64,000 bases of DNA, taken from contig NZ_JAPFQM010000001.1 of assembly GCF_026241205.1 (NCBI RefSeq), positions 124,001 to 188,000 of the forward strand, given 5' to 3'. A program made the translations under genes and the position numbers. Position 1 is the first letter of the stretch. Every line of letters starts with the position of its first letter. Under the pieces are notes generated by a model, which was not told the origin of the DNA, did not search any database, and was given only the letters and a program-made list of their open reading frames with translations. The stretch comes from Thermomicrobium sp. 4228-Ro (lineage in GTDB: Bacteria > Chloroflexota > Chloroflexia > Thermomicrobiales > Thermomicrobiaceae). Of the stretch, positions 32,809 through 43,171 are shown in pieces.

Positions 32809-32822
32809 TGCAGCGTGGCCGC

Positions 32823-32854
32823 GACCCCCAGCGGGGTTTGTCCCGCTGGGGGTC
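32823..32854 (+). terminator. Hairpin after the DUF2090 gene
   Basis: A perfect 13-bp stem (GACCCCCAGCGGG and complement) around a GTTTGT loop begins 15 bases after the stop. There is no T-tract directly after it, but no + strand gene follows until 33412, so it probably ends the transcript. Confidence 0.7.
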
Positions 32855-32871
32855 ACTGTCTCGACAGGACG

Positions 32872-33350: not shown

Positions 33351-33393
33351 CTTGACACTGTCCAAAAAGGTGTGTACATTGGACCGTGTCAAG
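33351..33393 (+). promoter_or_regulatory. fur/perR promoter enclosed by a 15-bp inverted repeat (probable operator)
   Basis: The promoter is TTGACA (33352-33357), 17 bases, TACATT (33375-33380). Two 15-base arms, CTTGACACTGTCCAA (33351-33365) and TTGGACCGTGTCAAG (33379-33393), are reverse complements except at one position. One arm covers the -35, the other the end of the -10 and the expected start of transcription. This geometry fits an operator for repression, most simply autoregulation by the downstream Fur-family protein. Confidence 0.75.
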
Positions 33394-33411
33394 GGAAGGG
33401 CACGGCTCGCA

Positions 33412-33909
33412 GTGACCGAATTCCTCTCGCCCGAACGACGCGCCGAACTGGCGTCTCGCCTGCGCCGGGCAGGGTTGCGGGTGACCAATCCGCGTCTCCT
33501 CATCCTGGACACGCTGGAGCGAAGCGGTGGGCACCGATCCGTCGATGAGCTGCTGCACCACCTGGAAACTCGCGGCATTCACCTCCCTCGGGCGACGGTT
33601 TACAACGTGCTCCACTCGCTCGTGGCCGCTGGACTGGTCATGGTCGCCGACGTTGGGCCGGGACGGATGCTGCTGGAGACGCTCCGGCAGTGGCATCACC
33701 ACTTCGTCTGTCGCGAGTGTGGTGCAGTGATCGATGTGCCCTGTGTCGTCGGAAGCAAGCCCTGCCTCGAGCCCGACCTTCCAGGGGCCGAGGTGGATGA
33801 AGCGCAAGTGATCTGGCGTGGCCGCTGTCCCCGGTGTGTCGCCGCATCGCGAGCCGAAGGAGACGCCGATGCACGGTCAGCTGTCGGCTCCTCGTGGTCC
33901 ACCGACTGA
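33412..33909 (+). CDS. Fur-family metalloregulator (PerR/Fur type)
   Basis: A 165-residue Fur-superfamily repressor. The winged helix occupies residues about 5-85 (RRAGLRVTNPRLLILDTLE, LPRATVYNVLHSLVAAGLV). The metal-binding part has WHHHFVCRECGAVIDV and a late CPRC, the two halves of a structural Cys4 zinc site. The next gene is a manganese catalase, so a peroxide-sensing PerR role is likely, but Fur, Zur or Mur cannot be excluded. The GTG at 33412 is chosen because a TTG further upstream is part of the -35 element itself, so translation must begin after the promoter. Confidence 0.88.
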   Translation: MTEFLSPERRAELASRLRRAGLRVTNPRLLILDTLERSGGHRSVDELLHHLETRGIHLPRATVYNVLHSLVAAGLVMVADVGPGRMLLETLRQWHHHFVCRECGAVIDVPCVVGSKPCLEPDLPGAEVDEAQVIWRGRCPRCVAASRAEGDADARSAVGSSWSTD

Positions 33910-33982: not shown

Positions 33983-34870
33983 ATGTATCTTCGAATCGAT
34001 CGTCTGCAAATCGAGTTGCCGCAGCCGAAGGAGCCTGACCCGAATGCTGCCGCCGCTGTTCAGGAGCTGCTCGGCGGACGCTTCGGTGAGATGTCGACCT
34101 TGATGAACTACACATACCAGTCGTTCAACTTCCGCGGTCGCGACAAGCTTCGTCCGTACTACGACCTCATCGCGAACATCGCGACCGAGGAGCTCGGCCA
34201 TATCGAGTTGGTCGCCGCTACGGTCAACTTGATGCTGACCGGCACGACGAAGCCAGCAGCACCCGATGCCGCACCGCTCGCCCCTGCCGTCAACTTGCGC
34301 AATACGCATCACTTTATCGCAACCGCGCAGACGGCGTTCGTCGGAAACTCGATGGGTGCGTTCTGGCATGGCGACTACGTCTTCTCCAGCGGCAACCTGA
34401 TCCTGGATCTTCTCCACAACTTCTTCTTGGAGTGTGGCGCGCGACTACATAAGATTCGTGTCTACGAGATGACGACGAACCCGGTCGCACGCGAGATGAT
34501 CGGGTATCTCTTGGTCCGTGGCGGCGTCCATGCGACGGCCTACGCGAAGGCGCTCGAGACGCTCACCGGCGTGCAGGTAACCAAGTTGTTGCCGATTCCC
34601 AATATCGAGAACAGCAAGTTCCCCGAGGCGCGCAAGTACGAGGAAATGGGCGTCCATCGGCGGCTCTACCGGTTCAGTCCGGAGGACTACAAGGAAATCG
34701 CGAAGATCTGGCGCGGACCGTCTCCGGCTGGCGATGGAGACCTCGAGGTCGTCGACGGTCCACCAGCTGGTGGGCCAGTGCCGGATCTCCCGGAGGTGCC
34801 GGAGGAGTTCGCTCCAGGGCTGGCGCCCGAGGAAATCGCCGAGCTCGCCAAGAAGCTCGCTGCGAGCTGA
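33983..34870 (+). CDS. Manganese catalase
   Basis: A 295-residue non-haem catalase that disproportionates hydrogen peroxide at a di-manganese centre. Ferritin-like helices carry the ligand set: E in RFGEMSTLMNYTYQSF, E and H in NIATEELGHIELVAA, E in FFLECGARLHKIRVYEM, and H in GGVHATAYAKALE. The C-terminal tail is acidic and proline-rich, as in other members. The ATG follows GAGGGAGGGAGCGCG. It lies 73 bases after the Fur-family gene and probably has its own promoter. A palindrome terminates the transcript. Confidence 0.95.
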   Translation: MYLRIDRLQIELPQPKEPDPNAAAAVQELLGGRFGEMSTLMNYTYQSFNFRGRDKLRPYYDLIANIATEELGHIELVAATVNLMLTGTTKPAAPDAAPLAPAVNLRNTHHFIATAQTAFVGNSMGAFWHGDYVFSSGNLILDLLHNFFLECGARLHKIRVYEMTTNPVAREMIGYLLVRGGVHATAYAKALETLTGVQVTKLLPIPNIENSKFPEARKYEEMGVHRRLYRFSPEDYKEIAKIWRGPSPAGDGDLEVVDGPPAGGPVPDLPEVPEEFAPGLAPEEIAELAKKLAAS

Positions 34871-42151: not shown

Positions 42152-43171
42152 TCAGCGTGGTCGAGGCTGCGTTCGGCGGTCTGGCGGTGCCAGTGCCGCC
42201 GCGAGCGCAGCCTCGATGTCGCTGAGTGTGCCCCGCTTGAGTCCGGCGTCGACGGCACGGAGCACGAGAAGGAGTTCGCGGACTCGCCCGAGTCCCCCTT
42301 GAGGAGCTTGACGCCGCGCCTGATGGATGCGTCCGGCGGGCACGCCGGTTGCCGCAGCGACGACATCCGGCGGAAGATGTGGTGTCAGCAAGGCTGCCAA
42401 CTGCGCTTCCAGGTGACTCGCGAGTTGTCCCAAGAGGATTTCCGGCGCGCTTCCCGTTGCCTCCGCACGCGCCAGTTCCCGAAGAACCGCATCGTAACGG
42501 TCGCGTCGAACGGCATCGACCAATTCCCAGCCGAGCGGCGCTTCCGCTGGGTTTACCAGCTCGTGAATGACGGCGCGCGTGATGACCTTTTCGGGGAAGA
42601 CCGCCGTCGCGAGCTTGGCGAGTTCCGCGTCGAGGCGAGCGAGATCGATAGGCTCCTCGGTGTCCGCGGTTCGGGACTTCGATCCGCTCGGAGCTCGTTC
42701 CGCCACGCCGAGCATGGCAAGGAGTTCACGAGCTGCATCGAGCTCGATTGCCACACCGTACCGCTCAGCGCGATCCTGCACCCATCGGAGGAGATCGTGG
42801 CCACGCGGCGTCGTGCACTCGACCACTGCGAGGTTCTCGCCGAAGCTCATCCGCAATTGCGCGAGTGCGGTCTCCGGGAGGAGTTCCTCGAGGCACACCA
42901 GGTGGGTGGAAGCTGGGAGTTCAGCGAGCCGAGAGAGGAGCGAACGATCGATTCGGCCACTCGTGCAGTTCGCCCCGAGTAGATGCTCGGCTACGATCAC
43001 CCGGTTCGCTCCGAAGAATCCCGGTGTGCACGCTGCCGAGAGAATGGCTTCGACAGTCGTTCCGGCTGGGAAGCGACTGGTCGAGAGCCCGCTGGGATCC
43101 TCCTGGGCGATGAGTTGCTGCACGCGCTCTCGCTTCAACAGGTCACTCGTGCCGTGCAGGACCGTGAGCAT
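42152..43171 (-). CDS. holA: DNA polymerase III delta subunit
   Basis: A 339-residue clamp-loader subunit. The first domain opens with MLTVLHGTSDLLKRERVQQL. A central segment reads FFGANRVIVAEHL and LVCLEELLPETALAQLR, followed by VITRAVIHELVNPAEAPLGWELVDAV and a helical C-terminal collar (ASHLEAQLAALL). Delta opens the beta sliding clamp. The ATG at 43171 follows GAGGGAAGGA. The gene diverges from an M23 peptidase across 67 bases. Confidence 0.88.
   Translation of the reverse strand: MLTVLHGTSDLLKRERVQQLIAQEDPSGLSTSRFPAGTTVEAILSAACTPGFFGANRVIVAEHLLGANCTSGRIDRSLLSRLAELPASTHLVCLEELLPETALAQLRMSFGENLAVVECTTPRGHDLLRWVQDRAERYGVAIELDAARELLAMLGVAERAPSGSKSRTADTEEPIDLARLDAELAKLATAVFPEKVITRAVIHELVNPAEAPLGWELVDAVRRDRYDAVLRELARAEATGSAPEILLGQLASHLEAQLAALLTPHLPPDVVAAATGVPAGRIHQARRQAPQGGLGRVRELLLVLRAVDAGLKRGTLSDIEAALAAALAPPDRRTQPRPR

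Follow-up and report, generated by a model that had tools for sequence, protein, structure and literature searches.

The gene for a Fur-family regulator in Thermomicrobium sp. 4228-Ro is preceded by an inverted repeat that frames its promoter, which raises the question of what binds there and what signal it obeys. The window analysed here is a stretch of 64,000 nucleotides (contig NZ_JAPFQM010000001.1, positions 124,001 to 188,000). An earlier note on this DNA had described arms complementary at 14 of 15 positions and separated by 13 bases, and this is exactly what the window holds at 33351-33393, where CTTGACACTGTCCAA and TTGGACCGTGTCAAG face each other across a 13-bp spacer. One arm had been placed on the -35 and the other across the last part of the -10 and the expected transcription start; the coordinates of TTGACA and TACATT, which together make a predicted near-consensus promoter, agree with this (Table 1). 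Since the start site lies inside arm 2, arm 1 would not be transcribed, so an RNA hairpin is rejected and the repeat is best read, as in that note, as a DNA signal. Another candidate, in which arm 2 would be the -35 of a promoter running in the opposite direction, was also rejected: by eye, no TANNNT-type -10 lies at 17-18 bp in any orthologue. Upstream of the promoter are three tRNA genes on the opposite strand. The fur gene itself likely starts at the GTG at 33412, behind GGGAAGGG, rather than at the TTG at 33352 given in the list of open reading frames.

The fur gene is followed by a gene for a manganese catalase. The gap between the two is 73 bp here, 31 bp in the related genome G003, 204 bp in G013, and 18 bp in both G002 and G006. 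Co-transcription of the pair is supported by the gap being only 18 bp in these two relatives. A separate box before the Mn catalase gene was sought by eye in the 73-bp gap, and none resembling the consensus described below was found.

Table 1. Features of the fur promoter region in the window, followed by predicted boxes at distant loci of the same Fur subfamily
Feature	Sequence	Position	Strand	Basis or remark
Box 1 (left arm), predicted Fur-type 7-1-7 site	CTTGACACTGTCCAA	33351-33365	+	Centre 33358; over the -35
Box 2 (right arm), predicted site	TTGGACCGTGTCAAG	33379-33393	+	Centre 33386; starts on the last two -10 bases and covers the expected transcription start
Predicted -35	TTGACA	33352-33357	+	From sequence; invariant in 6/6 aligned upstream regions
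Predicted -10	TACATT	33375-33380	+	17 bp from the -35; TA..TT invariant in 6/6 aligned upstream regions
Likely ribosome-binding site	GGGAAGGG	33393-33400	+	From sequence
Fur-family regulator related to actinobacterial FurA		33412-33909	+	PF01475, tree, ligands, two CxxC, AlphaFold2 model
Manganese catalase		33983-34870	+	PF05067, 1.1e-86; downstream, in the same predicted operon
L102, before fur	TATATTAGATGTTGTCCAA			On -10
L105, before fur	TATATTGGATATTGTCCAA			On -10
L107, before heme catalase	TATATTAGACAGTGTCTAA			On -10
L103, before heme catalase	TATGCTAGACACCGTCTAA			On -10
L106, before Dps-fur pair	TATACTGGACACCGTCCAA			On Dps -10
L110, before Dps-fur pair	TATAATCTGGACACAGTCCAG			On Dps -10
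L126, Streptantibioticus cattleyicolor, before fur	TAGTTTAGACATTGTCCAA			On -10; a ferritin-like/VIT protein gene follows
L101, before Dps-fur	TTTGACTCTGTCACA + CATGACAATGTCACG			Pair over -35/-10

Conservation of the repeat

The repeat taken alone is only mildly significant, because a repeat of equal quality (arms of at least 14/15, spacer of 3-40 bp) occurs in 12 of 100 dinucleotide-shuffled versions of the window, which hold on average 0.28 such repeats against the three observed. Two other inverted repeats were seen in the window. One, at 32821-32856, is GC-rich with a 6-bp loop, follows a DUF2090 aldolase-like gene and, by eye, is probably a transcription terminator; the other, at 42161-42216 (arms 14/15, spacer 26 bp), lies where a minus-strand ORF of 413 codons ends.

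What makes the repeat real, on the evidence of aligned sequences, is its conservation in orthologues, which were found at 67-75% identity in five further genomes, four from Thermomicrobium and one from another genus. Three of the other Thermomicrobium genomes have perfect arms, and the repeat is also present in the other genus. In G001, G002 and G006, box 1 is identical to that of the window and the arms are complementary at 15/15 positions across a 14-bp spacer, so the centres of the boxes are 29 bp apart in sister species as compared with 28 bp here. In G013 the left arm is the variant TTTGACAATGTCCAG and the right arm is TTGGACAATGTCAAA, with the layout unchanged. The invariant columns of the upstream alignment fall mostly in the arms and the promoter hexamers, and the flanks fail to align.

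The earlier note had made the conservation of both arms in related Thermomicrobia the touchstone of its reading. It holds for both arms in the four genomes just named, and for arm 2 in every orthologue, but arm 1 has been lost in two cases. In G003, only the -35 TTGACA of arm 1 is kept, and arm 2 is a single perfect 6-1-6 dyad, TGGACA-G-TGTCCA (TGGACAGTGTCCA). In G004, arm 1 has gone and arm 2 remains beside a fur gene broken by several stops and frameshifts. This pseudogene occupies about 1360-1930 of the G004 locus L010, and the Mn catalase downstream of it is still recognisable (E 2.6e-53), if more weakly than in the relatives.

The box and its distribution

Each arm is, as judged by its sequence, a complete predicted Fur-type 7-1-7 box with the consensus TTRGACA-N-TGTCYAA, because G003 has one arm only and full boxes stand singly in distant relatives. 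The earlier note's operator is thereby retained, with its clade-specific sequence and predicted autoregulatory role supported by the comparison, but a reading of the 43 bp as a single operator made of two half-sites is not. The dyads within the boxes of the window are degenerate, with a self-complementarity of only 5/7 and 4/7 as against 14/15 between the arms; a full or nearly full 15-bp dyad with a 1-bp centre is found at the promoter in G003 (6-1-6), L104, L107 and L126. The outer half of arm 2 in Thermomicrobium is TGTCAAG, which mirrors the -35 half of arm 1 at a place where no -35 is needed, a symmetry that might reflect cooperative binding; in several distant relatives the corresponding half reads TGTCTAA or TGTCCAA in full.

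The same kind of box is found beside distant members of the subfamily, in Chloroflexota and in one Streptomyces relative, where it starts on the end of a -10 (Table 1) and where the neighbouring genes encode Dps, heme catalase, ferritin-like/VIT proteins and two-component proteins. The consensus was relaxed to R and Y with the Ktedonobacteria-like loci already in view, hence a stricter box derived from Thermomicrobia only, TTGGACANTGTCCAA, was also tested. At 13 distant loci of the subfamily, it gave 6 matches with two mismatches (0.07 in shuffles) and 14 with three (1.3 in shuffles); at 23 loci of other Fur genes, it gave a single match at either setting (0.03 and 1.1 in shuffles, respectively). 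Four loci (L100, L108, L111 and L112) are without a good match. The predicted box drifts within the subfamily, since L108 and L111 carry instead a drifted core, TCGGACTGAGTCCGA, downstream of the -10.

Pairs of boxes 27-28 bp apart lie over the -35 and -10 before response-regulator or PAS-protein genes in L102, L104 and L105 and before Dps-fur in L101, and the comparison suggests that the Fur subfamily may control a two-component system in Ktedonobacteria-like genomes. In L102 and L105 the pair lies roughly 150-240 bp upstream of fur on its divergent side, and in L104, from a Ktedonobacteria-like genome, a pair at 2385-2427 covers the promoter to response-regulator or PAS/GAF-protein genes. 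In four Chloroflexota loci (L101, L106, L108 and L110), the subfamily gene is directly downstream of a Dps-like gene, which in L101 and L108 has a ferritin domain according to Pfam.

The genome-wide scans were pattern searches. In seven genomes, the exact core TKGACANTGTCMA occurs only at the operator, apart from one site (G000:C1:197834) that was rejected as a regulon site as it is inside the ORF of an MBL-fold hydrolase. Five genomes each have a single copy of the promoter-anchored form TANNYTRGACMNTGTC, in every case at the fur promoter, and for this reason the predicted switch looks dedicated to one operon. A wider regulon was sought in G000 with TTGGACANTGTCMAR at up to two mismatches, but was rejected, the 12+12 matches being roughly level with the 13+8 obtained with the reversed control. 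In ten distant genomes, the promoter-anchored pattern gave eleven matches, eight of them on the fur contig and beside fur.

The regulator and its probable signal

The protein has the characters of the Fur superfamily: a PF01475 FUR domain (1.9e-18; 67.2 bits against a curated cut-off of 23.1), a winged helix and two CxxC motifs, C100/C103 and C139/C142, which are invariant in the alignment. In the 30 aligned proteins, H41, H95 and H97 are invariant, and E89 and D108 nearly so. In an alignment with B. subtilis PerR, these five residues correspond to His37, His91, His93, Asp85 and Asp104. Four of the five residues of the PerR regulatory site are thus identical, and Glu (E89) replaces Asp85, as in PerR3. 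Such a Glu/Asp ligand set is found in PerR3 of B. licheniformis, a protein that H2O2 oxidises (PMC4866751). All 30 FurA-type proteins also have an additional C-terminal C-x6-C pair, C111 and C118 (PCxxGxxPCL). An AlphaFold2 model built with 6 rows had a poor C-terminal part; the model used here was built with 30 rows (pLDDT 89.8), and it matches PerR and Fur structures, the best PDB match being PerR 2fe3.

In a maximum-likelihood tree, the protein belongs to a joint clade with katG-linked actinobacterial FurA (support 100/96), within which the Chloroflexota proteins and that of S. cattleyicolor form their own subclade (99/91); the katG-linked group itself has a support of 83/55, which is weak. 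Three actinobacterial FurA proteins of the clade are annotated directly upstream of katG. The grouping is therefore that of a FurA/CatR-type branch, but the pairing is not, the partner being Mn catalase rather than KatG; elsewhere in the subfamily, the partners are heme catalase, Dps and VIT.

The repeat is very probably a pair of predicted binding sites for the Fur protein encoded downstream, which would thereby repress the fur/Mn-catalase operon. A dimer loaded with metal, presumably Fe or Mn, would sit on each 7-1-7 box, that on box 1 covering the -35 and that on box 2 covering the last -10 bases and the start site. The promoter, with a dimer on either side, would be occluded and the operon silent. 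Were the metal lost, most likely because peroxide oxidises the ligand histidines as in PerR, the promoter would become accessible and both catalase and fresh repressor could be made. That a metal-dependent repression is relieved by peroxide is likely because the ligands are of the PerR type and conserved (His, Glu, His, His, Asp). In M. avium paratuberculosis, however, the deletion of furA left katG unchanged (PMC4319475), and control of the linked enzyme can therefore not be assumed.

Another possibility is that the same protein, acting at the same operator, senses a metal such as iron or manganese instead of peroxide. Fur-family proteins are activated by metal, one of the relatives adjoins a ferritin-like/VIT protein gene, and E89 stands where classical PerR has Asp. 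However, the residue at the PerR Asp104 position is Asp (D108) and not Glu, and an Asp here has been proposed to determine whether peroxide gains access (PMC4866751). Moreover, the partners are mostly peroxide defences, namely Mn catalase, heme catalase and Dps, and this makes a metal sensor the less likely reading.

A question of a different kind is posed by the mirror symmetry of the arms, which would not be required of two independent boxes and which speaks against them. Could the 43 bp be one operator for one larger assembly, whether a tetramer or a bridged pair of dimers, for which this symmetry is decisive? In three genomes, the arms are indeed 15/15 mirror images although each is just 5/7 palindromic, and the spacing of 27-29 bp recurs across several lineages. 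Yet the only arm retained in G003 is a perfect palindrome, distant relatives often have a single box, and one pair in L104 is 41 bp apart; the spacing also varies by 1-2 bp and tracks the -35/-10 geometry. One large complex is consequently improbable, and twin boxes are retained here.

Two further Fur-family proteins are encoded in the genome, and either of these paralogues or an unrelated factor might in principle bind the boxes in place of the neighbouring Fur protein. This is very doubtful given that the promoter-anchored box is unique to the fur promoter, that the box follows the Fur subfamily across phyla with no enrichment beside other Fur genes, and that it decays where fur is broken. 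Finally, a chance repeat arising from a strong promoter and its surroundings, to which the 12% of shuffled windows and the share of TTGACA in arm 1 might point, has practically no probability left: it is already refuted by the conserved arms, the same boxes recur in distant loci, and the second copy of TTGACA is on the opposite strand and is not a -35.

Relation to known operators

Mycobacterial FurA, encoded ahead of an enzyme that degrades peroxide, regulates its own gene through a box that overlies the -35 (PMC2630230), and the arrangement found here is, to this extent, a known one. In both cases, a Fur-family gene is followed by the gene for such an enzyme, and a 7-1-7 or 8-1-8 box is laid over a TTGAC -35 (PMC4319475; PMC4218801). 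The left arm, taken as TCTTGACACTGTCCAAA, agrees at 14 of 17 positions with the mycobacterial motif T[CT]TTGACT[CG][AG]TTCCA[GA]A (PMC4319475), represented by the box TYTTGACTSRTTCCARA over the -35, but the core differs, being GACT-N-ATTC in mycobacteria and GACA-N-TGTC here. There are three other differences from the mycobacterial furA-katG system: a second box lies on the -10 and start site, Mn catalase takes the place of KatG, and the protein is in its own subclade. The FurA-katG pairs of Streptomyces and Rhodococcus share the well-supported clade, whereas the box cores are others in the loci examined, a comparison confined to FurA.

The PerR boxes of Bacillus have a 7-1-7 layout and are AT-rich (TTATAATNATTATAA). 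The earlier note was thus right that the sequence here differs from the AT-rich Fur and PerR boxes, but the layout is kept, and arm 1 is close to the mycobacterial box. Bacillus PerR is also alike in fold and, in the case of PerR3 of B. licheniformis, in its ligand set (PMC4866751); the differences are the GC-containing core of the box and the two extra invariant Cys near the C-terminus. A search of the open-access literature, which is to say outside subscription journals and regulon databases, found no paper that gives this box sequence or treats a PerR regulon in Chloroflexi. Against the mycobacterial FurA and Bacillus PerR boxes, what is new is the GACA-N-TGTC core, the second predicted box on the -10 and start site, the partnership with Mn catalase and the delimitation of the subfamily.

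The balance of these comparisons tilts towards a hitherto undescribed Fur subfamily, with a patchy occurrence in Chloroflexota and in one or more actinomycetes, with its own box placed exactly on the -10 and start site and often with a second on the -35 at 27-29 bp, which together would form a two-dimer promoter clamp. Through this box the subfamily would control a limited group of nearby genes for peroxide and iron defence (Mn catalase, heme catalase, Dps and VIT), to which Ktedonobacteria-like genomes would add two-component genes.

The locus offers a testable pair of operator and sensor for a Fur subfamily that had no described box in the literature searched. The predicted switch is compact, thermophilic and probably has a single target, which makes it handy for footprinting, and targets in other genomes may be predicted from sequence alone. 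It may also provide a route to asking how the DNA specificity of the Fur family moves from the ATTC-type core of FurA to GACA/TGTC.
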